This document shows positions 16,255 through 28,127 of a DNA stretch of 37,387 nt, piece by piece; within the stretch, counting starts at the first letter, position 1, and each line of letters opens with the position of its first letter. The translations under genes and the position numbers were made by a program. The stretch is from assembly GCF_015207455.1 (NCBI RefSeq), contig NZ_JADEWV010000048.1:1-37387 (forward strand), in the 5' to 3' direction. The notes under the pieces are model-generated. The model saw only the letters and a list, made by a program, of their open reading frames with translations. It was not told the DNA's origin and ran no database searches. This stretch comes from Microcoleus sp. LEGE 07076 (GTDB taxonomy: Bacteria > Cyanobacteriota > Cyanobacteriia > Cyanobacteriales > Microcoleaceae).

Positions 16255-16802
16255 CGGCTTTTGTGATATTTAACAATAATCTCATAAAATACATACAAAT
16301 CTGACTTTGCCTGCATTTTAAGTTTCTACCTTTTGACTTCTAGTGGCACAACTACAAACACCTCTACCGGATGAGACTGCAAGTCGTTTCCGGCTACTTT
16401 TTTGGATCTTGCCAAATAGTTTTGATTTGAGGATACTAGCTTTTGCTGCTAGGAATGTGAAGGTTAAGTCCACTAATCGCCGATGCAACATAGCACATAT
16501 CGCCCTGCGATGTCAATGCGCGTTGGTGTCGCAGCCGGTCAAAGTCAATAGCTGCAGCACGTATCGGGGTTGGTGCTTTGTCGATCGCCAGACGATCCCA
16601 TAGCTGCAAGCTTCGCTAAGGGCGAAAGATGCTAAACTCGGATTGAGTGCGATCGACGGCTGTGGTTCACTGCACCCTTGGCACAGGCTCGCACCCCTGA
16701 TGTCGCACAACAAAATTAATAATTAAGTTTGATATTGATGATTGCGATTATTTAAATTTTTGATTTCGATCGTTTAAGCTCTAATTTGTGGAGGAAACTA
16801 AT
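16255..16802. other. Divergent intergenic region between tig and asd
   Basis: About 550 bp between two divergently transcribed genes. It should hold both promoters. Small open frames here have no recognisable product and unlike codon use. The final 90 bp before asd are very A+T rich (TTGATATTGATGATTGCG). No riboswitch-like structure was recognised. Confidence 0.5.
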
Positions 16803-17846
16803 TTGTCTCAATCCTATCGAGTTGCCATTTTAGGAGCCACCGGCGCAGTCGGTGCCGAGTTGCTAGAACTCCTTTACAGCCGGAGTTTTCCGATTTCTGA
16901 CTTGAAGCTGTTGGCTTCAGAGCGCTCAGCCGGCACAACTTTGCCTTTTGGCGGCGAGATGCTGCTGGTAGAAGCAGTTTCGGCGCGAGCTTTTGATAAT
17001 GTAGACATAGTCCTCGCCTCGGCGGGCGGCTCTACTTCTCAACTGTGGGCCCCCAAAGCAGTGGCCGCTGGGGCAGTAGTAATCGACAATTCCAGCGCTT
17101 TCCGCATGGATGCGACGGTACCGCTAGTGGTTCCCGAAGTCAATCCCCAAGCGGTGGCATCTCACCGAGGGATAATTGCTAATCCCAACTGCACCACGAT
17201 TTTGATGGCAGTTGCCGTTTGGCCGCTTCACAAAGTTAGGCCAGTGCAGCGCATCGTTGTAGCGACTTACCAGTCTGCCAGCGGCGCGGGGGCGAGGGCA
17301 ATGGAGGAAATGAAAGCTCAAGCAAGAGCAATTTTGGCAGGGGAAACTCCCAAAACAGATATATTTCCCTACCCTTTAGCTTTTAATTTGTTTCCGCACA
17401 ATACGCCGATTAACGATTTGGGGTATTGTGAGGAAGAAATGAAAATGGTAAACGAAACTCGGAAGATTTTTGGTACGGACGAGATTAAAATTACGGCAAC
17501 TTGCGTGCGGGTTCCCGTACTGCGCGCCCATTCGGAGGCGATTAACCTAGAGTTTGCAGAGCCTTTTAGCCCGATCGAGGCTAGGGAAATCTTGAAGGGG
17601 GCGATCGGGGTTAAGCTGGTAGAAGACTGGCAAGCTAATTATTTCCCGATGCCAGCAGAAGCCAGCGGTAAAGATGAGGTGTTAGTCGGCAGGATTCGCC
17701 AAGATATTTCTCACCCCTGCGGGTTGGAGATGTGGCTGTCTGGGGATCAAATCCGCAAAGGGGCGGCTTTAAATGCGGTGCAGATAGCTGAGTTGCTGGC
17801 CCAAAAAGATTTGTTGCCAACCCAAGTGGCGGCGGCTTCTAACTAG
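16803..17846 (+). CDS. asd: Aspartate-semialdehyde dehydrogenase
   Basis: Reduces L-aspartyl phosphate to aspartate semialdehyde with NADPH, at the branch to lysine, threonine and methionine. The protein has the nucleotide-binding GATGAVG near the N-terminus, the active-site Cys in IANPNCTTI (C130 in this numbering), and a conserved His in RVPVLRAHSEAI. I choose TTG at 16803 because GGAGGA sits 8 bases upstream and the product (SQSYRVAILGATG) then aligns with the family N-terminus; a GTG at 16788 in the same frame would add five residues but overlaps that Shine-Dalgarno. dapA follows after about 110 bp on the same strand. Confidence 0.93.
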   Translation: MSQSYRVAILGATGAVGAELLELLYSRSFPISDLKLLASERSAGTTLPFGGEMLLVEAVSARAFDNVDIVLASAGGSTSQLWAPKAVAAGAVVIDNSSAFRMDATVPLVVPEVNPQAVASHRGIIANPNCTTILMAVAVWPLHKVRPVQRIVVATYQSASGAGARAMEEMKAQARAILAGETPKTDIFPYPLAFNLFPHNTPINDLGYCEEEMKMVNETRKIFGTDEIKITATCVRVPVLRAHSEAINLEFAEPFSPIEAREILKGAIGVKLVEDWQANYFPMPAEASGKDEVLVGRIRQDISHPCGLEMWLSGDQIRKGAALNAVQIAELLAQKDLLPTQVAAASN

Positions 17847-17954
17847 GGGGAACCCTAGCAAGCATGGAAATTGAAATTGGGGATTTTAGATAAACCTTTC
17901 ATCTGAAATCAAAAATTTAAAATCAAAAATCAAAAGTCTAAAATCGGAGAAAGT

Positions 17955-18857
17955 GTGGTAAAGTTTGGACGGGTTCTGACTGCAATGATTACGCCGTTTA
18001 AGGAAGACGGCAGCGTTAACTATGCGGTAGCAGAACAATTGGCAGTTCATTTAGCCGATCGCGGTACTGATGGCTTGGTAGTGTGCGGAACTACTGGCGA
18101 GTCTCCCACTATGAGCTGGGATGAAGAATACGAATTATTTCAGGTGGTGCAAAAGGCAGTCTCCGGTAAAGCTTTGGTAATAGCAGGAGCCGGCTCGAAT
18201 TCTACTTCAGAAGCAGTCTCCGCTACGCAAAAAGCAGCTAAACTAGGATTGGACGGGTGCTTGCAGGTGGTTCCTTATTACAACAAGCCGCCACAAGAAG
18301 GTTTGTACAATCATTTTCGGACGATCGCGCAATCTGCACCAGAATTGCCTATAATGTTATATAACATCCCCGGTCGTACAGGCCAAAATATGTTGCCGGA
18401 AACAGTAGCTCGACTGGCCCAAATCCCCAACATTGTGGCCGTAAAAGAAGCAAGTGGCAACTTGGATCAAGCCAGCCAAATCCGACGCTTGACACCCCCT
18501 GAATTTGCCATCTATGCTGGAGATGATTCCCTAACTTTGCCAATGTTGGCGGTAGGAGGATCTGGTGTAGTTAGCGTAGCCAGCCATCTGGTAGGAGAGC
18601 AACTGCAACAGATGATCGCAGCTTTCGAGGCCGGTCAAGTTCAAGTCGCTACCCAGATTCACTTGCAACTTTTTGACCTGTTTAAAGCTCTTTTTCTCAC
18701 CACAAATCCCATTCCCGTCAAGGCAGCTCTCAAACTTCAAGGCTGGGATGTAGGTTCCACCCGTCCGCCGCTGTGCGATCCGCCCGTTGAGATCACTCAA
18801 AAGTTAAAGGACGTACTGAATCAGCTAGCCCTGGTATCAGCTAGCCCGACTACATAG
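17955..18857 (+). CDS. dapA: 4-hydroxy-tetrahydrodipicolinate synthase
   Basis: Condenses pyruvate with aspartate semialdehyde, committing carbon to diaminopimelate and lysine. The 300-residue TIM-barrel protein shows GTTGESPT (45-52), the Tyr of LYNIPGRTG (Y136) and the Schiff-base Lys in [10 protein letters not shown] (K164). Translation begins at GTG with GGAGA about 6 bases upstream. It uses the product of the preceding asd gene, so asd-dapA forms a pathway operon, followed by rnj after about 350 bp. All catalytic residues look intact. Confidence 0.96.
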
Positions 18858-19206
18858 GCGAGAACGAGTTTTCAGACAACTGAATATTGGTTGTTATTAG
18901 TCATTAGTCATCAGTCACTGGTTATGAGCTATGAGTTATTAGCTGATAATTAAGAATTGCTGATTGAGGATTGGAGACAACTGACTGTACGGGAGAGTAA
19001 AACCCCGTCGGGGAGTTTTCCACAAAAATCTGGAAAAAAATCGCCCCCATCCACGAACAACAGATAGTAAACACCTCCCAAAAAGCTTGTATAGAACAGG
19101 CAGGATGCCGGTTCCACAGGGATTATTGGAGAGGTCTAGACAGTAGCGACAGACAACAGTCAACAGACAACAGTCAAATAACAAAAATAACTAACAAAGG
19201 ATACGC
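18858..19206. other. dapA-rnj gap with short direct repeats
   Basis: The gap contains TTAGTCATTAGTCATCAGTCA repeats in short form near 18897-18917, CCCCGTCGGGGAG (19001-19016 region), and AACAGTCAACAGACAACAGTCA heptamer-type repeats near 19155-19176. No gene is supported. AAAGGAT directly before 19207 is the rnj ribosome binding site. Confidence 0.55.
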
Positions 19207-21075
19207 ATGATCAAGAATACAACTGCATCGGCTCTAAAAGTTATTCCCCTCGGCGGGCTCCACGAAATCGGCAAAAACACTTGTGTGTTCGAGTACGGCG
19301 ACGAAATAATTCTTTTAGATGCAGGTTTAGCCTTCCCGACAGATGGAATGCACGGCGTAAATATTGTCCTCCCAGACATGACTTACCTGCGGGAAAACAG
19401 CCACAAAATTAAAGGTATGATCGTGACTCACGGTCACGAAGACCACATTGGGGGCATCCCTTATCACCTCAAACAATTTGAAATTCCAGTCATCTACGGC
19501 CCGCGTTTGGCGATGGCTTTGCTAGCCGGAAAATTGGAAGAAGCAGGAGTATCCCACCGCACCGAATTGAGGACAGTTAGACCCCGCGACACGGTAAGAA
19601 TTGGCAAGAATTTCTTAGTCGAATACATTCGCAACACTCACTCGATGGCAGACAGTTTCACGGTGGCAATTCACACTCCTGTGGGAATTTTGATCCACAC
19701 CGGAGACTTTAAAATTGACCATACTCCTGTAGACGGCGAGCATTTTGATTTGCAAAAGCTGGCGGAGTACGGCGAGAGAGGCGTGCTGTGCTTGATCAGC
19801 GATTCTACTAATTCGGAAGTTCCTGGTTTTACAGCTTCAGAACGTTCTGTTGCTCCGAATTTAGACAGAATTATCGCTCAAGCAACGGGACGGATAATGA
19901 TCACGACTTTTGCTTCGTCGGTACACCGATTGCAAATTATTTTGGAATTGGCTAAGAAAAACAATCGGTACGTCGGAGTGGTGGGTCGATCGATGTTGAA
20001 CGTCATCGCTCACTGCCGCAATCTCGGCTACATCAAATGCGAAGATAGTATTTTCAAACCGCTCAAAGAAATACGAAATTTGCCAGAAGACAAAATTTTG
20101 ATTTTGACGACGGGTTCCCAAGGCGAACCGATGGCGGCAATGACTCGCATTGCTAACGGCGAACATCACGAACTGAAAATCAGAAAAGGCGATACAGTCA
20201 TTTTCTCGGCTAATCCGATTCCGGGAAATACGATCTCCGTGGTAAACACGATCGACAAACTGATGATGCTGGGCGCAAACGTAGTTTACGGGCGCGACAA
20301 AGGAATTCACGTTTCGGGCCACGGCTGTCAGGAAGACCAAAAGTTAATGATCAACATGACTCGTCCCAAGTTCTTCTTGCCGGTACACGGGGAACACCGG
20401 ATGTTGGTTCAGCACTCCAAAACGGCTCAAAGCATGGGCATTCCCGCGAGCAACATGGTGATTATTGACAACGGCGATGTCGTAGAATTAACGGAAAATT
20501 CGATCGAAGTTAGCGGTAAAGTACCTTCAGGAATTGAATTAGTAGATGCTTCTCGATCGGGCGTTGTCAAGGCGAATATCCTGAAAGAACGCCAGCAGTT
20601 AGCTGGAGACGGTGCCGTGACAGTAGCTGCGGCTTTGAATTGGGAAGGCAAATTAGTTGCAAAGCCGGAAGTCCACTTAAAAGGTGTAGTCACATCAGCC
20701 GATCGCGCGCAGGTGATCGGATTAATCAATCAAACCATTGAAACAGTTTTGAGCGATCGTTGGACAGAATTTGTCAAACCCCCCACTGATGACTCGCAAA
20801 TCGAAGTTGACTGGGTAGGAGTTCAAACCCAAATCGAAAAAGCAATTGGGCGAGTCCTGCGCCGGGAACTGCAAAGCAATCCGATGCTGGTATTCCTGAT
20901 GCAAATTCCAGAAGAAGCAGTGCGATCGGAAACCGTGCAAACACCTCAACTGTCGATCGAAGCACCTAAGCTAGTATCATCAGCGCCATCCGCGCCAGTA
21001 CCAGCCCCTGTGAATAAAGTAACAGGTCGTCGCCGTCCTCGGACTGCTGCAAAAGTAGCTTCCGTCGTCTCGTAG
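19207..21075 (+). CDS. rnj: Ribonuclease J
   Basis: Endo- and 5'-exoribonuclease of the metallo-beta-lactamase/beta-CASP family, central to RNA turnover in cyanobacteria. The 622-residue protein has the metal site HGHEDHIGG (75-83), the downstream metal-binding His and Asp in TGDFKIDHTP, beta-CASP motifs (SDSTNSE, TTFASSVHR, VHGEHRML) and a C-terminal domain ending in a basic tail with GRRRPRTAAK. AAAGGAT precedes the ATG. Gene order asd-dapA-rnj is recurrent in cyanobacteria. All active-site motifs are present. Confidence 0.95.
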   Translation: MIKNTTASALKVIPLGGLHEIGKNTCVFEYGDEIILLDAGLAFPTDGMHGVNIVLPDMTYLRENSHKIKGMIVTHGHEDHIGGIPYHLKQFEIPVIYGPRLAMALLAGKLEEAGVSHRTELRTVRPRDTVRIGKNFLVEYIRNTHSMADSFTVAIHTPVGILIHTGDFKIDHTPVDGEHFDLQKLAEYGERGVLCLISDSTNSEVPGFTASERSVAPNLDRIIAQATGRIMITTFASSVHRLQIILELAKKNNRYVGVVGRSMLNVIAHCRNLGYIKCEDSIFKPLKEIRNLPEDKILILTTGSQGEPMAAMTRIANGEHHELKIRKGDTVIFSANPIPGNTISVVNTIDKLMMLGANVVYGRDKGIHVSGHGCQEDQKLMINMTRPKFFLPVHGEHRMLVQHSKTAQSMGIPASNMVIIDNGDVVELTENSIEVSGKVPSGIELVDASRSGVVKANILKERQQLAGDGAVTVAAALNWEGKLVAKPEVHLKGVVTSADRAQVIGLINQTIETVLSDRWTEFVKPPTDDSQIEVDWVGVQTQIEKAIGRVLRRELQSNPMLVFLMQIPEEAVRSETVQTPQLSIEAPKLVSSAPSAPVPAPVNKVTGRRRPRTAAKVASVVS

Positions 21076-21090
21076 TACGATCGTGATTGG

Positions 21091-21295
21091 CAACCGCAGA
21101 TGAACGCAAATGAACGCAGATAGATTTAATTTAATAATTATCTGCCTTCATCTGTGTTGATCTGCCTCAATCTGCGGTTAAAAAACCGTATTGAATTAAA
21201 ACTTTGATTTCAACCGCAGACGAACGCAAATGAACGCAGATAGATTTGATAACTATCTGCGTTCATCTGTGTTGATCAGCCTCAATCTGCGGTTG
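21091..21295. repeat. Two copies of a CAACCGCAGA...TCTGCGGTTG hairpin repeat
   Basis: Copy 1 (21091-21180) and copy 2 (21211-21295) each start CAACCGCAGA, contain GAACGCAAATGAACGCAGAT, and close with ATCTGTGTTGATC and TCTGCGGTT, so each is an interrupted palindrome of about 85-90 bp. A one-sided fragment lies at 30692-30737. Located between the convergent rnj and the MoaD-like gene, the pair may act as a bidirectional terminator. Confidence 0.85.
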
Positions 21296-21303
21296 AAAAT
21301 TAA

Positions 21304-21579
21304 TCAGCCGCCAGCAACTGCTGGAACAATGCTCACTTCATCGCCATCTTGGAGGGAAGTTTCTGTGCCTTCCAAAAAGCGGATATCTTCGCTGTTGACG
21401 TAGAAGTTCAGAAACCTGCGGGGTTCTCCCTTTTCGTCGCACAAGCTTTTTTTGATGCCGGGGCAATTTGTTTCTAGCGATTCAATCAGTTCGGAAATGT
21501 TGCCGCCGCCGCATTCGATAGTGGCTTGATTGTTAGTGAATTTTTGCAGGGGAGTGGGTATTAAAACTTTAACAGTCAT
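21304..21579 (-). CDS. MoaD/ThiS family sulfur-carrier-like protein
   Basis: A 91-residue beta-grasp protein ending in the diglycine (VPAVAGG) needed for C-terminal adenylation and thiocarboxylate formation in MoaD/ThiS/CysO-type carriers. [16 protein letters not shown] is the family signature. It lies 100 bp downstream of thrC on the same strand, suggesting co-transcription, and a second MoaD-like gene lies upstream of thrC. The family serves molybdopterin, thiamine, cysteine or homocysteine synthesis; which one applies here cannot be read from sequence, but the gene neighbour points to amino-acid sulfur chemistry rather than to molybdopterin (no moa genes are nearby). Confidence 0.88.
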
Positions 21580-21588
21580 TTTTTTAGT

Positions 21589-21652
21589 CCTTAGTCAGTA
21601 GTCAGTAGTCAGTAGTCCTTAGTCAACAGTCAACAGTCAACAGTCAACAGCT
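21589..21652. repeat. AGTCAGT and CAACAGT heptamer arrays
   Basis: AGTCAGT units (21596-21616) followed by CAACAGT units (21624-21652) fill most of the thrC to MoaD-like gap. They are the reverse complement of the TGTTGAC heptamers near devB. Confidence 0.8.
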
Positions 21653-21679
21653 TGATAACTAATGACTAATGACTAATAA

Positions 21680-22978
21680 TTAAACCGAAACTTGCTGCCA
21701 TTCTAAGCGTTCGAGTGTCCGGGCGCGTTCGAGGGCACGCTCGAAGGCTTCGATTTTTGGTTCGAGGGTGATGGGTTCGCCGATGTAACCTTGGACAGCT
21801 TCTTGGGTTTTCAAGCCGTTGCCGGTGATGTAGGCGACGGTGGTTTCGTCGGGGTTGATTTTACCTGCTTCTACAAGTTTTTTCAAGACTGCGATCGTTG
21901 TGCCGCCTGCGGTTTCGGTGAAGATGCCTTCGGTTTCGGCTAGCAGTTTCATGCCTTCGATGATTTCGGTGTCGCTGACGGATTCGATATTGCCGTTGGT
22001 TTTGCGGGCGATTTCCAAGGCGTACATACCGTCGGCTGGATTGCCGATCGCGATCGACTTAGCAATGGTATTCGGTTTCACCGGTGTCACAAAATCGCGA
22101 CCTTCGCGGTATGCTTGGGCGATCGGCGAACAGCCGTCGGCTTGCGCGCCGCTGAACCGCACTTTTTTGTCGTCCACTAAACCGACTTCGATAAATTCTT
22201 GAAAACCTTTGTAGATTTTTGTGAATAAGGAACCGGAGGCGAGGGGGGCGACGATGTGGTCTGGCAATTGCCAGCCTAGCTGTTCGGCAACTTCGTAACC
22301 GAGAGTTTTCGAGCCTTCGGAATAGTAGGGGCGCAAGTTGATATTGACAAATCCCCAGCCGTGTGTATTGGCTACTTCGCAGCAGAGGCGGTTAACTTGG
22401 TCGTAATTGCCGTGAACTGCCATGACAGTAGGATTGTAAATCAGAGTGCCGAGGACTTTGCCTGCTTCTAAGTCGGAGGGAATGAAGACTACGCAGTCGA
22501 GGCCGGCGTGGGCGGCGATCGCAGCGGTGGAGTTGGCTAAGTTGCCGGTGCTGGCACAGGATACCGTTGTGAAACCCAATTCTCTAGCTCTGCTGAGGGC
22601 GACTGACACCACTCTATCTTTGAAGCTGAGAGTGGGCATATTGACGGCATCGTTTTTAATATAAAGATTTTTTAGACCCAGGCGGCGCGCCAAGCGGTGG
22701 GATTTTACTAAAGGAGTCATCCCCGTACCGACATCAATGACGTTATCTGTAGCGACTGGTAAAAATGCGCGGTAGCGCCAGATCGAGTTGGGGCCGGCTT
22801 GGATGGTTTGGCGGGTAACGGTGCGCCGGATCGCATCGTAGTCGTACTTGACTTCTAGCGGGCCAAAACAGCAATCGCAGACGTGCTTGGCTTGGAGTTC
22901 GTACTCTTCGCCGCATTCTTTACATTTAAGGGCTGTGAAGGTTGCTGCTGTGGATTGGGTTCTGGTCGCTTGGGTCAT
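21680..22978 (-). CDS. thrC: Threonine synthase
   Basis: PLP-dependent enzyme that converts O-phosphohomoserine to threonine. The 432-residue protein has an N-terminal zinc-ribbon-like cysteine set (C19, C22, C34, C37), the GTGMTPL block, the PLP lysine K120 in TLSFKDR, the phosphate-binding STGNLANS and the VAYITGNGLKT segment. This is the fold-type II, short plant/archaeal-like class. It is flanked on both sides by MoaD/ThiS-like carriers in the same orientation. The usual role is threonine synthesis; involvement in a sulfur-transfer reaction is only a hypothesis drawn from context. Confidence 0.96.
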   Translation of the reverse strand: MTQATRTQSTAATFTALKCKECGEEYELQAKHVCDCCFGPLEVKYDYDAIRRTVTRQTIQAGPNSIWRYRAFLPVATDNVIDVGTGMTPLVKSHRLARRLGLKNLYIKNDAVNMPTLSFKDRVVSVALSRARELGFTTVSCASTGNLANSTAAIAAHAGLDCVVFIPSDLEAGKVLGTLIYNPTVMAVHGNYDQVNRLCCEVANTHGWGFVNINLRPYYSEGSKTLGYEVAEQLGWQLPDHIVAPLASGSLFTKIYKGFQEFIEVGLVDDKKVRFSGAQADGCSPIAQAYREGRDFVTPVKPNTIAKSIAIGNPADGMYALEIARKTNGNIESVSDTEIIEGMKLLAETEGIFTETAGGTTIAVLKKLVEAGKINPDETTVAYITGNGLKTQEAVQGYIGEPITLEPKIEAFERALERARTLERLEWQQVSV

Positions 22979-23095
22979 AGCTCAACTCTCTAGTTTTGCG
23001 ATGTTTTCTAATTCTTAGGACAGATTAGCACGGTGGATCTACCCCGTCAACCATACCCGACTTTTTTGGTCGGGATTGATTTAGCTGTAAATATG

Positions 23096-23146
23096 CACTT
23101 TATTTAACTTGCATCTTTGGGCGGGCGGGACGCCCACCCCACAAGA
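23096..23146. repeat. Partial copy of the TTATTTAACTT/GGGCGGG repeat
   Basis: ACTTTATTTAACTTGCATC followed by GGGCGGGCGGGACGCCCACC and CCACAAG resembles the repeats at 10599-10698 and 37291-37387 but lacks the second A+T-rich end. Confidence 0.6.
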
Positions 23147-23250
23147 ATTAGACTCGTTTTCTGGCTCTAACTGGGAATGCAAATCCTCATCCCCGCGTGC
23201 GGGCCCGATCGAAGTCAAGGATGATTTGCCAACGGAATTGTTACAAAACT

Positions 23251-23338
23251 TAACAGTCAACAGTCAACAGTCAACAGTCAGTAGGGGCGGTGCCTGTGAG
23301 TGCGGGCCCTTCTTAACAGTCAACAGTCAACAGTCAAC
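23251..23338. repeat. CAACAGT heptamer arrays (two blocks)
   Basis: Four to five units at 23251-23280 and three to four at 23315-23338, separated by about 35 bp. Same family as the arrays at 3819-3852 and 37017-37123. Confidence 0.85.
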
Positions 23339-23345
23339 GGCCCTG

Positions 23346-23606
23346 CTACCCGCCGCTGACGGGGGGGATGAGTACAACTTCGTCGCCGTCTTGGAGGATG
23401 GTGTCGGGAGAGACGAATTCTAGGTTGAGGCCGAAGCGGGTACGATCGCGCCACTGTTCTAATTGAGGATACTGGGCGATCGATCTTTCGAGAACTTGAG
23501 ACACTGGAGTTTCCCGAGGAAGTTCTACAGTAATTTCAGAAACTCCGTAGGCTTCACCGAAGGCGGCGAACAGTTTAACGGTGACGTTAATCGAAGAGTT
23601 AGACAC
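23346..23606 (-). CDS. MoaD/ThiS family sulfur-carrier-like protein, second copy
   Basis: An 86-residue beta-grasp protein (SNSSINVTVKLFAAFGEAYG at the N-terminus) ending ILQDGDEVVLIPPVSGG, with the diglycine required of thiocarboxylate carriers. The central QWRDRTRFGLNLEFV region is typical of a cyanobacterial subgroup. The frame stays open to a TTG at 23657, but the GTG at 23606 gives the usual family N-terminus and is preferred. It is clearly different in sequence from the carrier at 21304-21579, so this is not a recent duplication. It lies upstream of thrC on the same strand, 367 bp away, with repeats between. Confidence 0.87.
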   Translation of the reverse strand: MSNSSINVTVKLFAAFGEAYGVSEITVELPRETPVSQVLERSIAQYPQLEQWRDRTRFGLNLEFVSPDTILQDGDEVVLIPPVSGG

Positions 23607-24103
23607 GGCTGTGGTAGTGCGATCGACAGTTTGGCAGTTATCAACTAAACCATACAATTAATTGGGAATTAAGCACGCCACGCCTTAGAATTAAAAGCGG
23701 CAATCTCTAGTTACGTTTTAGCCCATCCGGCAAATATGACTGTTGATTGCAGCAGAAAGTTTGAAGAGTATTGTATGCCGATCGCTATTACCAACCAGAC
23801 ATTAGAAGCCGTTGGCATCCACTTAAATGCACTTAACTGCGGTCTAGCCGGCTGCGGTTTTGGCTGCTGCAAAACTATGTTTCGAGGACACAGTATAAAT
23901 AATTGACCGTAATTGTAGGAGAGTACAAAACATCGCACTAAATTTAGCGGTCAACAACGCAGACCCTGCCCTGCTAAACCGCTGGTTGGCGACTAAAATT
24001 CTGGTTGTCAAGTCCAGCTTATAATTCCCAAAGCTTTGCCCTATTTAGCAAGCATGACGTTCTATCTAAGAATAATAGTCAAGTTAACGCGATCGAGATA
24101 TTT
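23607..24103. other. Intergenic region upstream of the 95-residue protein gene
   Basis: About 500 bp between divergent genes. TGTAGGAGAGTACAAAACATC at 23916 onward looks like a leader-type sequence, and similar TGTAGGAGAG strings occur at 5333 and 26586, but no start codon follows at a suitable distance. No coding frame is supported. Confidence 0.5.
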
Positions 24104-24391
24104 ATGGCAAGTAACGATTTTAAAGTGCTGCAAATTATTGAAGCTAAAGGCTGGTATGCCTTTGGGAGTACAAAGCAAAGCCAGCACGTAGAGAGGTGGG
24201 TCAGACCTGTCGTGTGTTGGGTTTTAATAGAAGATAAAAAAAAGCGGCGGATTGTGACTGCTACCGCTAGCTATCAGATCCAGATTGACGACAAAGAAGT
24301 CGAATTCTTTGCTCACGAAAGCGAAATTCAAGATATCGAGAGTCTGCCGAAGTCAGTCTCGGTATCAGAATTTCTGAAAACTGAAGATTGA
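24104..24391 (+). CDS. Hypothetical 95-residue protein
   Basis: A small soluble protein of no recognised family. It starts MASNDFKVLQIIEAKGWYAFG and contains VERWVRPVVCWVLIEDKKKRRIVTATASYQI, with alternating hydrophobic residues that suggest beta strands, and an acidic C-terminal third (FFAHESEIQDIESLPKS). The ATG at 24104 is preferred over an in-frame TTG at 24005, whose extra residues look like non-coding sequence. There is a weak GAGAT upstream. The conserved-looking composition and clean reading frame support a real gene. No functional motif is seen. Confidence 0.7.
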   Translation: MASNDFKVLQIIEAKGWYAFGSTKQSQHVERWVRPVVCWVLIEDKKKRRIVTATASYQIQIDDKEVEFFAHESEIQDIESLPKSVSVSEFLKTED

Positions 24392-25071
24392 GATTGGAAG
24401 AGAAGGAGATTATTTAATAATTTATTAATTATTCCTTAGTAATTCCTTAAACTTGCTGTCCGATTCTATTTCAATTGGAGACAAAACCTCTAGATTAGGG
24501 TGTTCTGGAGGCACTCCAATCAAAGAAACCGGGTTTTTTTCTTATTTGCGGGCGGCCGCCAAGTGTTTTCCCAAAAAACCCGGTTTGCGATCGCCCATCC
24601 GTGCCTAACTATTTATTTCAAGCACGAATAAATCGATGCTTTTGCGTTGCTGCATCAGAAAGCCCAATGCCTCAAGTAGCCAAAAAAAATAGACCTCTTG
24701 CCTCAGTCCTTTTAATCAAATTGTGGGACGATGCTCAGAGCAACGTCCCACAAGAAAAAAAGATTTTTGTGCGATGGCACGCGAGCATCGTCCTAACTAT
24801 TTTTGCAATTACGTCAAATAAAGAGGCCGGAAGATTGCTGGCAATGCCAACACGCTTCCGACCTTGCTGAATAACAGGGTATGCATATGTTTCTAAAGTA
24901 TGGCAGGCAAGCTTTCGAGATATCAAGAGGGCTATTGCAATCACCCACTTTTGCTTTTAAGGTATGTTTGCAAGGCTCATACCATTTTAGACTTAAAATT
25001 TGAAAGTTGAGAGCTGGCGATGGTTACAGCTTAAGGATTCTAGCGGTTTTTATGTAGCGGTTGCTACAACT
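24392..25071. other. 680-bp intergenic region with hairpin repeats
   Basis: It contains the AAACCGGGTTTTTT hairpin pair at 24527-24586 and a second inverted repeat TTGTGGGACG (24721-24730) / CGTCCCACAA (24744-24753). An open frame at 24601-24870 runs through the second hairpin, starts at GTG and shows no family features, so I do not call it. The region lies between two convergent genes, so promoters are not expected. Confidence 0.55.
24527..24586. repeat. AAACCGGGTTTTTT inverted repeat pair
   Basis: Arms AAACCGGGTTTTTT (24527-24540) and AAAAAACCCGGTTT (24573-24586) are perfect 14-bp complements with a 32-nt G+C-rich spacer. Same family as 33094-33158. Confidence 0.85.
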
Positions 25072-26448
25072 TTAAATCCCGCTCACAACAGGTTCAGGCT
25101 TCTGCTGTGGCATCCGCCGCCCCAGTAGAGCCATCCGCACTCCGCCGGCCGGCCCTAAAGTCACCCCTCGGCGTTTTGCCTCTACCGGCTTTTTCTCGGC
25201 CAATACCAAGTCGAAATCGCGCAAAATGGTTGCCAGCACCAGTTTCATCTCCAACTGCGCCAGCGCCAAGCCGATACAGCGGCGGCTGCCGCCTCCAAAG
25301 GGCAAATACTCGTAAGGCGAGAATTGCCTCTCCAAAAACCGTTCCGGCTTAAATTGCAGCGGTTCTGGATACAAATCCTCGCGCCTGTGGGTTAAATAAA
25401 TCGAGCCGAAAACCACCGTACCCGGTTCGAGTTGATGTCCCATCAGTTCCAGGGGCTGGCGCACTACTCGCGGAAATGTCAGCATTCCCACCGGGTAAAT
25501 TCTGAGTGTCTCTTGACAAACTGCACTCAGGTACGGCAACCGGGAAATCTCCATCGGGTCGGGATTTTCGCCTAAACTGTCTAATTCTTGCAGCAGTTTC
25601 TGGCGCACCGCAGGCAAACTGTGAGTCCAGTAAAATGCCCAAGCTAAGGCAGTTGCTGTGGTTTCGTGGCCTGCAAACAGCAGCGTCATCAACTCGTCGC
25701 GCAATTCTTCATTCGTCATCGGTTCGCCGTTTTCGTCGCGCGCGGCCATCATTAAGCTGAGAATGTCGGCGCGGTTGCTGTCTGGTTGCAGTCTGCGTTC
25801 GGCAATTTCGGCGTCCATCAGTTCCTGAATTTTGCGCTGCTGCTGTTTCATTCGTCCCCAAGGACTCCAAGCGCCCCAATCTTGCTGCATCCAGGGCAGA
25901 AATAGCATACTCGATCGCAGCGGAGAGCCGGTGGTATCGATAATTGAAGCCAGCAGCGGAGACAGTTGCTGCAACCGCGGCCCTTCATCTAGTCCGAAGA
26001 CTACTTGCAAAATTACCCGCATGGTGATTTCTTGCATGGCGGTGCGGGCGACAAAAGGTCGATCGACCGTCCATTTGGTGGCAACATCTCGAGTAATATC
26101 GCAAATTTGTTGAGCGTAGTTACGCATCCGTTCGCCGTGAAAGGGCGGCATCAATAATTGGCGCTGGCGTTTGTGCTTTTCTCCGGAGATTACAATCATC
26201 GATTGTTCTCCCAGCAAAGGTTTGAGAATACCGTTGATATCGCCTGGAGCCTCAAGGGCTTTGCTGTTGAGCATTTCCTGGATCGCTTGCGGGTTGTGGA
26301 TCATCACGAAGGGTTCAAGGTTTCCCCACCGAGTCGTGAAAATCTCGCCGTACTTTTTGGCGCTGACATCCATGTATCTAAGCGGATCGCCAATCCATTG
26401 AATTAGCTGCACGAAGCGGGGGTTTTTGGGGCCGTCAGGTAGTGTCAT
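25072..26448 (-). CDS. Cytochrome P450 (CYP110-like)
   Basis: Haem-thiolate monooxygenase of 458 residues. It has the I-helix AGHETT (259-264), the K-helix ExxR as ETLR (313-316), and the haem-binding loop FGGGSRRCIG (384-393) with Cys391 as the axial ligand. There is no obvious N-terminal membrane anchor. The N-terminus LPDGPKNP and the C-terminal RGVTLGPAGGVRM motif fit CYP110, the cyanobacterial P450 family active on fatty acids and terpenes; the substrate here is unknown. It has no adjacent reductase gene, so electrons presumably come from ferredoxin. The ATG at 26448 is the first in frame. Confidence 0.93.
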   Translation of the reverse strand: MTLPDGPKNPRFVQLIQWIGDPLRYMDVSAKKYGEIFTTRWGNLEPFVMIHNPQAIQEMLNSKALEAPGDINGILKPLLGEQSMIVISGEKHKRQRQLLMPPFHGERMRNYAQQICDITRDVATKWTVDRPFVARTAMQEITMRVILQVVFGLDEGPRLQQLSPLLASIIDTTGSPLRSSMLFLPWMQQDWGAWSPWGRMKQQQRKIQELMDAEIAERRLQPDSNRADILSLMMAARDENGEPMTNEELRDELMTLLFAGHETTATALAWAFYWTHSLPAVRQKLLQELDSLGENPDPMEISRLPYLSAVCQETLRIYPVGMLTFPRVVRQPLELMGHQLEPGTVVFGSIYLTHRREDLYPEPLQFKPERFLERQFSPYEYLPFGGGSRRCIGLALAQLEMKLVLATILRDFDLVLAEKKPVEAKRRGVTLGPAGGVRMALLGRRMPQQKPEPVVSGI

Positions 26449-26833
26449 GTCAATTGCGGTGTGTTGTGTTGCAGGAGTTAGGCAGAATCAAAGGATCTCG
26501 AAGGGTTGGAAGGTTTATGCAATCTCTCCGAACCCTTTTTAAAGAAGATGGAATTGGGTAATACCAGCTACGAAAAACAATGAACTGTAGGAGAGATACA
26601 AAAGAAGCATCTGTGTTTTGTATTTGTAGTGCGAGCGTCTCGCTCGCTTGGTGATATATTCGCAAGCCAGGACGCTCGCACAGCGTTAAAATAATACTTT
26701 TTGCATTCCTTGAGATGTTCTCGATCCAAACTCCTACAGAACAAGTAATTGCCTATTCTTTAATTCTTCAATCAAAGTCTTCAATGCCTCAATCGAAAAT
26801 GCTATAATTCCCATCTCTAATTATATTAATCGA
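26449..26833. other. Gap upstream of the P450 with a GTGCGAGCGTC hairpin
   Basis: GTGCGAGCGTC (26629-26639) and GACGCTCGCAC (26671-26681) form an 11-bp perfect inverted repeat around a 31-nt spacer. The rest shows nothing recognisable. Both flanking genes are on the - strand, so the gap should hold the P450 promoter and possibly the terminator of the GerMN-like gene's upstream neighbour. Confidence 0.55.
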
Positions 26834-27439
26834 TTATTCTCGAACTGTGCTGACAATGTTCTGTCCGAGCTCTGTAAAACGCACTGTTTTGATTTGCCAA
26901 GGAGCATAACGGATCAAAGTTTGGCGCACGCCTCCAAACAAACCTAGCATTTGACAGCTCGACAGATTTTGCAGTTTCTGCCGGGAATTCCCGAAGGCCC
27001 GCAGATCCAGGGTAGCTATTCCGAGGTCGCGGTCGATCGTCAGCCGATAGCCAACCAAACCGAGACTATCGAAAATCTGCTGCTTTAACACTTCATTAAC
27101 GGCGGATGACATTAACTGATTGTTTGGGCCTGTTACTGTTTCCGGGTTGAGAGTTTGACAGAGATTGTCTACCTTATAAATTTTAACGGTGACAGTATTC
27201 TCTGATGCTACTCCAGTGGCTAAAACTGGGGGAATAGAGTTAGAGGGGAGCGCGGATTGAGTCGATCGACCCTCAACTAGATTTCTCGTTAGCTGTAGGT
27301 CTCTGAATTTACCGACGCCCGTTCGGGATTGGCTCCCGTTTGCGGTTAAGTTCGCTGCATCATAGGTGAAACAACTGCTACCACCCATCAAAATTAATCC
27401 TGCGGCTAAATACTCGAACTGTTTGCAAATACGGTTCAT
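26834..27439 (-). CDS. Exported protein with a GerMN-like domain
   Basis: A 201-residue protein with an N-terminal signal or lipoprotein-type sequence (EYLAAGLILMGGSSCFT; the cysteine could be lipidated, though GSSC is not an ideal lipobox), a low-complexity linker, and a C-terminal domain of about 120 residues. The domain begins TVTVKIYKVDNLCQTL, continues with NEVLKQQIFD and LGIATLDL, and ends RQTLIRYAPWQIKTVRFTELGQN, a pattern like GerMN domains, which bind cell-wall or envelope components. Two cysteines (NLC and SSC) may pair. The assignment rests on pattern resemblance only. Confidence 0.65.
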   Translation of the reverse strand: MNRICKQFEYLAAGLILMGGSSCFTYDAANLTANGSQSRTGVGKFRDLQLTRNLVEGRSTQSALPSNSIPPVLATGVASENTVTVKIYKVDNLCQTLNPETVTGPNNQLMSSAVNEVLKQQIFDSLGLVGYRLTIDRDLGIATLDLRAFGNSRQKLQNLSSCQMLGLFGGVRQTLIRYAPWQIKTVRFTELGQNIVSTVRE

Positions 27440-28127
27440 AGTTTCTAATACTCAACTAAATGTCTGTGCATTGAGGGTGAAGTTTGGTGGTAGAAAGCAC
27501 TTAGTCCCTGATTACACTCACTTAAGAGTATTTCCCGCCATCCGCAATACGGACACGAAAATAAGTTAATGGTTCTGATTAATACCTGTATTTTAGTGTT
27601 GTTTCACGTAAATGGGCAACGCAATTGATGCGATCGCGCGCGGATGGCTCCGTATCCCATCAGATTAAGCTTGCAGCGCTAGACCGGAAGTCATATCAAA
27701 TACCCGGTCAGCGGTGTGGTTTGGCGTTGCCACTCGCTCCATGCCGATGTGTGATTTAAAAAGCATTTTTTCCGGTTGGCAAAACCTTGACCTTGATTAG
27801 TAGTAATAAGGACATAGTTTCGACTTGCGCGCGCATTTTACTATCTCCTTCGCAGCGGTCGTATCAATTGGTTTAGTGTGCATTTATACAAAAAAAATCG
27901 GCGTTAAGAATCCCTGATGACTCGGTGGTTGAAACCAGGACTATACAAAGTTTTGTCGGCGACCCTGACTAAGAAATAAAGGGGGTATTTAAGGCGGATT
28001 TGGTAGGGCAAACGTGCAAGTCGCGAACCACATAATTCCCCAGCCAGCCTCTGGCGGATCGAGGGTGCGATCGCAACATTTGGTGATTTTTCTATCCAAT
28101 TCCATCAAAAATAGTGAGCACATCGTC
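27440..28127. other. Intergenic region upstream of the COP23 gene
   Basis: About 690 bp between divergent genes. Apart from a possible very short ORF (27756-27836, listed separately) nothing recognisable was found. The frame of the COP23 gene is open upstream to a GTG at 28014, but that segment lacks protein-like features. Confidence 0.5.
27756..27836 (-). CDS. Possible 26-residue ORF with strong ribosome binding site
   Basis: On the - strand AAGGAGAT precedes an ATG by 6 bases, and the frame encodes 26 residues (MRAQVETMSLLLLIKVKVLP and six more) with a Leu-rich centre. A good Shine-Dalgarno is uncommon in this window, which is the only reason to list it. It could equally be chance. Confidence 0.2.
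   Translation of the reverse strand: MRAQVETMSLLLLIKVKVLPTGKNAF

Follow-up and report, generated by a model that had tools for sequence, protein, structure and literature searches.

The DNA analysed here, a stretch of 37,387 nucleotides from Microcoleus sp. LEGE 07076 that is referred to throughout as the window, contains a gene for a pyridoxal phosphate (PLP) enzyme of the threonine synthase (ThrC) family flanked by genes for two small sulfur carrier proteins, carriers A and B. The point at issue is the part that these genes may play in homocysteine synthesis, and it was followed up in the host genome (6.79 Mb, 99.6% complete; G000), in other cyanobacteria and in actinobacteria. All three genes are read from one strand:

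21304-21579, minus strand: carrier A, 91 amino acids, C-terminal GG (...VPAVAGG), a MetO/CysO-type sulfur carrier; Pfam ThiS 65.2 bits
21680-22978, minus strand: PLP enzyme, probable MetM, 432 amino acids; Pfam PALP 259.5 bits, TIGR00260 thrC 347.8 bits
23346-23606, minus strand: carrier B, probably MoaD-type, GTG start, C-terminal GG (...IPPVSGG); Pfam ThiS 59.3 bits

An earlier note on this DNA had described two unlike GG-ending carriers of the ThiS/MoaD fold on either side of a thrC-like gene, all on the same strand, and the coordinates and Pfam matches bear this out, both carriers scoring well over the ThiS cut-off of 22.5 bits. Its placing of the thrC product among the fold-type-II PLP enzymes agrees with the PALP match. 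Likewise, no molybdenum cofactor or thiamine genes were seen in the 13 window open reading frames scanned or in the translations of 17000-28000, smaller reading frames elsewhere being unscanned. The reading frame of carrier B extends open up to a TTG at 23657. Both gaps bordering the enzyme gene contain heptamer tandem repeats (AACAGTC, TAGTCAG), at 21585-21677 and 23252-23338 of the window.

Gene order in cyanobacteria

The survey comprised 145 cyanobacterial genomes, including 10 that are less than 90% complete or more than 5% contaminated, and the enzyme, called present at E <1e-140 and at least 70% identity, was found in 130 of them. In 110 of the 130 enzyme loci carrier A is found downstream, on the strand of the enzyme (within 400 bp in 101, at 494-1064 bp in nine, with one of the 110 cut by a contig end), and carrier B lies upstream in 18. 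Hence the three-gene arrangement is not a matter of chance, nor is the order unique to this strain, as the earlier note had asked. The 20 enzyme loci lacking an adjoining carrier A comprise 12 from family f28, six from family f22 and two at contig ends; for one genome of each family (G052 and G063) an A-type carrier was confirmed elsewhere in the genome.

The number of ThiS-family proteins follows the presence of their partners. It equals one, plus one for MoaE and one for the enzyme where these are present, in 13/13 genomes of family f7 and in 114/145 overall, the 31 exceptions lying above (24) or below (7) the expected number. As a separate observation, MoaE and PF01837 are present in genome G143 (3.76 Mb in one contig), which gave no ThiS-family, PF01053 (E 1e-30) or JAMM match and no enzyme at MetM level, and which has, oddly, lost every sulfur carrier.

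On the plus strand of the window, asd, dapA and an RNase J-like gene (16788-21075; named by reading their translations) converge on carrier A. These genes were considered as a conserved cluster with the pair and rejected, as within flanks of about 4 kb dapA and rnj recur in two other loci of the 130 and asd in none.

The enzyme and the canonical threonine synthase

The host genome encodes a second TIGR00260 protein on contig C71 (L006), with 333.3 bits. In an alignment of 58 sequences the C71 copy shares the SVNPYRLEGQKT-like and GNAGN motifs with three solved ThrCs; both motifs are absent from the window enzyme, which, like its relatives, carries NLRPYYSEGSKT and ASGS instead. The first of these is exact in 130/130 cyanobacterial copies, and ASGSL is present in 126/130. 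A four-cysteine zinc-ribbon pattern at the N-terminus is found in 127/130, two of the three exceptions being fragments. Similarly, the 81 actinobacterial copies described below carry a relaxed form of the first motif in 77 cases, and ASGS and the zinc ribbon in all 81. A maximum-likelihood tree of 58 sampled rows (24 of the 130 cyanobacterial and 16 of the 81 actinobacterial copies among them, midpoint root) places the cyanobacterial and actinobacterial enzymes together at 100/99 and joins the C71 ThrC to the three solved ThrCs at 100/100, with the caveat that several outgroups have long branches and that the tool warns of possibly false joins, including the one between MetM and ThrC. By its motifs and its place in this tree the window enzyme is distinct from the canonical ThrC of the genome, which is the C71 copy. 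The view that it is the sole threonine synthase of the host was rejected for the presence of this canonical second copy. A C-terminal tail, RL[ED]WQ, was also seen in 116/130 cyanobacterial copies (about 21683-21715 in the window), and the enzyme of Nonomuraea gerenzanensis lacks it.

Actinobacterial relatives and the SAM riboswitch

A search of a plasmid collection retrieved the Nonomuraea gerenzanensis enzyme, which is 54% identical to that of the window and stands in the order S-adenosylmethionine (SAM) riboswitch (68.7 bits), enzyme, A-type carrier. The actinobacterial set consists of the best 80 of 585 confirmed relatives, ranked by likeness to the Nonomuraea query, together with Nonomuraea itself (81 loci), and all of these best 80 are actinobacteria by title. 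In 81/81 loci the enzyme is followed on its own strand by an A-type carrier, -4 to 148 bp away. Identities to the 81 actinobacterial copies are 50-55% for the window enzyme, and 66 of the carriers beside those copies are 41-51% identical to carrier A. No annotated sulfur carrier adjoins the ThrC gene in one haloarchaeal and one Chloroflexota plasmid locus.

The actinobacterial carriers end in GG (66), GGC (12), GGA (1), GGAR (1) or GGQ (1), and those with additional residues (for example at L241, L247, L252 and L290) would therefore have to be trimmed before they could be activated. Among the cyanobacterial A-type carriers, three have GGY, GGV or GGR at the end. SAM riboswitches regulate methionine and SAM genes. 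One lies directly upstream of the enzyme in 16/16 loci of the 80 that were scanned with Rfam and, with Nonomuraea, in 17/17, which points to the actinobacterial enzymes being methionine genes.

Two carriers of different families

Three ThiS-family matches are present in the host genome, namely A, B and a third on contig C474, which is a true ThiS (TIGR01683, 76.8 bits over 37.45). The nearest solved structures to A are CysO 3dwg (5.9e-19) and 4n6e (1.6e-18), and those to B are MoaD 5mpo (1e-7) and also 1vjk. At E 1e-3 neither carrier retrieves the other within the window locus (L084), and A retrieves some B-type carriers from other genomes weakly, with 14-19 bits. From these comparisons A and B are assigned to different families.

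Carrier B is most likely the MoaD that serves MoaE, since its nearest structures are MoaD, its best NCBIfam model is TIGR01682 moaD, the host genome has one MoaE match (C327), and B-like carriers stand beside MoaE elsewhere. As the moaD score of 59.6 bits is under the cut-off of 66.15, it is named MoaD-type only. In eight loci that had been selected for a ThiS-family match beside MoaE, B retrieves the MoaE-side carrier in all eight, strongly in L348 (73.6 bits) and L349 (82.5 bits) and weakly in six (15-33 bits).

The earlier note had linked both carriers to the enzyme. The order B-enzyme-A, with B within 1.4 kb upstream, does occur in 18/130 cyanobacterial loci from six families, and all 18 also have A. 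However, B is MoaD-like in sequence, carriers like it adjoin MoaE in other genomes, and 111/130 loci have no B-type carrier in the fetched stretch. B was thus rejected as part of the enzyme pair, and it is hardly credible that both carriers supply the window enzyme; two carriers for one enzyme lack support because B is probably the MoaD for MoaE.

For carrier A it may be asked whether it works with a cysteine synthase, as CysO does, or in protein modification, lying beside the enzyme without serving it. CysO and 4n6e are its nearest solved relatives, and the host genome holds two CysK-type enzymes. Yet in two phyla A is the same-strand neighbour of the enzyme (110/130 and 81/81 loci), and the carrier count in family f7 follows the enzyme and MoaE in 13/13 genomes. 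Such a role apart from the enzyme is considered very improbable.

Other routes to homocysteine

The earlier note had asked whether metX, metY and metB are missing, and neither a full-length PF01053 enzyme (the metB/C/Y/Z family) nor MetX was found in the host genome. Its nine PF01053 matches score 19.9-28.7 bits, and the eight that were fetched fit other PLP families best. MetX gave no host match at E 1e-60, a threshold chosen for the reason that all 145 genomes and 14 controls scored below the 500-bit cut-off. In the survey, PF01053 matches (E 1e-30) occur in 54/145 genomes and MetX (E 1e-60) in 22/145, the host having neither. PF01053 is present in 12/15 genomes lacking the enzyme and shows no match in 88/130 genomes bearing it. 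Hence, in the 88/145 genomes that have the enzyme and no PF01053 match, the textbook pathways leave homocysteine synthesis unexplained.

Family f7 presents the two conditions side by side. Its enzyme-lacking genomes have three PF01053 matches (11/11) and its enzyme-bearing genomes have none (2/2). In G001, an enzyme-lacking member of this family, one of the three matches proved to be MetY (655.6 bits over 495.1), and the gene after it encodes a MetA-like protein whose 236.1 bits fall short of the 460.5 cut-off. Another match resembles cystathionine gamma-synthase without reaching the cut-off, and the last fits no NCBIfam model at 1e-60.

A different candidate for the same step is PF01837 (HcyBio/DUF39). 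Members of this family make homocysteine with a NIL/ferredoxin protein in methanogens and Desulfovibrio, and the pathway is documented for D. vulgaris and for M. acetivorans (PMC5764234, PMC12068725, both in the portions available). The host has one such protein, of 391 amino acids with 501 bits, at G000:C122:41633-42682 (L370:4589-5764). It would make homocysteine from aspartate semialdehyde and leave the window enzyme mainly as a second threonine synthase/deaminase. The gene is present in 129/145 genomes including the host, it is absent from all 11 f7 genomes without the enzyme, and G143 has it while lacking both the enzyme and any PF01053 match. The formation of threonine by a Microcystis ThrC in vitro also fits (PMC12172450, available part).

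In the M. acetivorans HcyBio enzyme Cys54 is essential (PMC12068725, same portion). However, the column of host residue 52, which is taken by inference as equivalent to Cys54, holds Glu in 21, Gln in one and a gap in one of 23 cyanobacterial rows. The first cysteine of the host protein is at position 72, and only 4/23 rows have an earlier one, at three scattered places. Three proteins scanned with Pfam have no CBS domain, and 20 loci around the gene have no open reading frame of at least 70 amino acids with CxxCxxCxxxC, NIL/ferredoxin proteins elsewhere not having been searched for. Moreover, the host already has a canonical ThrC. Searches for PF01837 relatives in Protein Data Bank, plasmid and viral collections gave nothing useful. 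On these comparisons the PF01837 explanation appears weakened yet standing, and it is judged unlikely.

Both systems might also operate, either as parts of one pathway or as parallel routes that depend on conditions. Their co-distribution (127 genomes with both, 13 with neither, 5 discordant) gives a Fisher p of 5e-14, not corrected for relatedness, and in G130 (L157) about 1 kb separates the PF01837 gene from the enzyme gene, the two being divergent. But of the 130 enzyme loci only the one in G130 shows such a neighbourhood, and 0/20 PF01837 loci contain the enzyme. Of the 13 genomes with neither gene, 11 belong to family f7 and may reflect a single event, and the remaining two (G081, G093) are incomplete. 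Joint operation is regarded as improbable. A broader proposal, put forward as speculation that is doubtful though not fanciful, is that MetM/MetO and a PF01837 protein lacking the catalytic cysteine of archaea would form one cyanobacterial homocysteine pathway, kept or lost together, with the thiocarboxylate as the general methionine sulfur donor of the phylum and with MetA/MetY replacing the unit in one small-genome family.

Proposed activation of the carrier

The earlier note had called for a search for a ThiF/MoeB-like E1 or a JAMM protease, and both were found, adjacent on contig C9. Among three ThiF-family matches in the host genome, the C9 protein is an E1 of 390 amino acids with a rhodanese domain (PRK07411, 789.3 bits over 633), and a JAMM protein of 153 amino acids adjoins it on the same strand. 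The same neighbourhood recurs around the best JAMM matches: of 30 such loci, 29 contain an E1 relative that is read in the same direction inside the 1.5 kb flank, and the remaining one borders a contig end. A JAMM match occurs in 98/145 genomes. As a required partner JAMM is a weak candidate, 34/130 enzyme-bearing genomes having no match at E 1e-10. The mycobacterial MoeZR, a single E1-rhodanese, sulfurates both MoaD and CysO (PMC3227635, in the part available), and by analogy we infer that the C9 E1-rhodanese would charge carrier A.

Another host protein combining the two domains, C463 (L021:448-2337), has 629 amino acids and carries a JAB domain towards its N-terminus and a ThiF/E1 domain towards its C-terminus, and it matches the anti-phage cap2_3 model weakly (78.4 bits versus a cut-off of 320).

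A probable MetM/MetO pair

In 2024 Hasebe et al. reportedly described in Streptomyces the MetM/MetO system, in which O-phosphohomoserine and a carrier thiocarboxylate give homocysteine. This is the published precedent for the idea of the earlier note, which did not name it. Its proposal that a ThrC-like enzyme takes sulfur from a carrier thiocarboxylate is well supported for carrier A, through kinship with the actinobacterial pairs linked to SAM riboswitches, and is not supported for carrier B, which is probably a MoaD. Carrier A and the PLP enzyme are thus read as the probable cyanobacterial MetO/MetM pair making homocysteine, with a likelihood of roughly two in three.

The elimination of phosphate to give a PLP-bound vinylglycine-type intermediate is established chemistry of ThrC. 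In the proposed sequence of events, the MoeZ-like E1-rhodanese on C9 would adenylate the GG end of carrier A and then convert it to a thiocarboxylate, as in the analogy with MoeZR. The enzyme would bind O-phosphohomoserine drawn from the threonine branch, and removal of phosphate would lead to the same type of intermediate as in ThrC. The sulfur of A would then add at the gamma carbon, in place of water at the beta carbon, to give homocysteine, as for MetM. Release of the product from the carrier may occur via hydrolysis or through the JAMM protein beside the E1. Carrier B, as MoaD, would serve MoaE.

Work on Microcystis touches directly on this pair, and it is cited here from the available part of one report (PMC12172450). 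According to it, cyanobacterial homologues of MetM/MetO had already been pointed out in the Streptomyces study, and the Microcystis ThrC is 51.6% identical to MetM with a metO-like gene adjacent. In Microcystis, threonine raises the expression of thrC 10.5-fold and that of its metO-like neighbour 6.8-fold while methionine and SAM are lowered, and added methionine brings thrC back to the control level (PMC12172450). The induction and its reversal suggest a methionine-responsive control of thrC. The literature searches found no proof of a MetM/MetO pathway in cyanobacteria.

Several results weigh against the MetM/MetO assignment. In the same part of that report, the Microcystis ThrC forms threonine from O-phosphohomoserine in vitro and also deaminates threonine; only an unidentified peak was obtained with or without a sulfur source, that source being named as Na2S, with no carrier; cells high in ThrC show no rise in methionine; and the authors judge the enzyme to be not fully MetM-like in cells (PMC12172450). 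The window enzyme passes the threonine synthase model TIGR00260 (cut-off 167.1) and, narrowly, the threonine synthase model NF006050 (306.9 versus 303). The Nonomuraea copy passes TIGR00260 too (270.1) and fails NF006050 (261.9), so TIGR00260 does not tell the two kinds of enzyme apart. No SAM riboswitch is present in the window or in the 16 cyanobacterial loci scanned (0/16), and a low-threshold Rfam scan upstream of the window enzyme gave nothing useful. The likeness to MetM was judged by way of the actinobacterial relatives and not from the characterised S. albulus sequence. The carrier does not stand beside the enzyme in the 18 genomes of families f28 and f22. A MetX-like match (267.9 bits) accompanies the enzyme in one f7 genome, G119, and the host has a PLP protein of the PF06838 'methionine gamma-lyase' family (410 amino acids, C329, L017:985-2217, 645 bits). 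Lastly, the distribution of PF01837 equals that of the enzyme in 140/145 genomes, and since the two co-occur in all but five, distribution cannot decide between them.

If the MetM/MetO assignment is right, a gene routinely labelled threonine synthase would be a methionine enzyme in most of the surveyed genomes, and metabolic models would need correction. One activating enzyme may then be common to three sulfur carriers. The presence of the PF01837 gene makes the question sharply testable.

Comparison with known systems

MetY is a PF01053 enzyme that uses O-acetylhomoserine. The Wolinella MetY/HcyS system has a protein thiocarboxylate as the homocysteine sulfur donor, as is proposed here, but the host genome has no full-length PF01053 match. 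Mec is part of the mycobacterial CysM/CysO system, with which the window shares a fold-type-II PLP enzyme and a related carrier (A), a JAMM protein being present in the host genome. The window enzyme differs from CysM in being ThrC-like, with homocysteine rather than cysteine as the expected product, and the host JAMM protein stands beside the E1 instead of the carrier. The use of one E1-rhodanese for MoaD and CysO in Mycobacterium is a further likeness to what is proposed for the host (MoeZR; PMC3227635, same part). The HcyBio/L-ASST route of PF01837 would fill the same step, and its gene is in the host genome; its substrate and chemistry are different, however (PMC5764234, same portion), and the gene lies outside the window.

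With canonical ThrC (TIGR00260) the window enzyme shares the family, the PLP lysine motif SFKDR and the expected substrate, O-phosphohomoserine, whereas it has NINLRPYYSEGSKT and ASGSL where ThrC has the SVNPYRLEGQKT-like and GNAGN motifs. As in Streptomyces MetM/MetO, a ThrC-like enzyme is followed by a GG-type carrier, and the window enzyme groups with actinobacterial copies. Unlike there, the pair in the window is without a SAM riboswitch, the RL[ED]WQ tail marks the cyanobacterial copies, and the host genome additionally holds the PF01837 gene. Similarly, the window carrier ends in GG, in contrast to the GGC end of 12/81 actinobacterial carriers. The Streptomyces pathway is already published, and in cyanobacteria the pair appears, on the sequence comparisons, as a candidate member of it.

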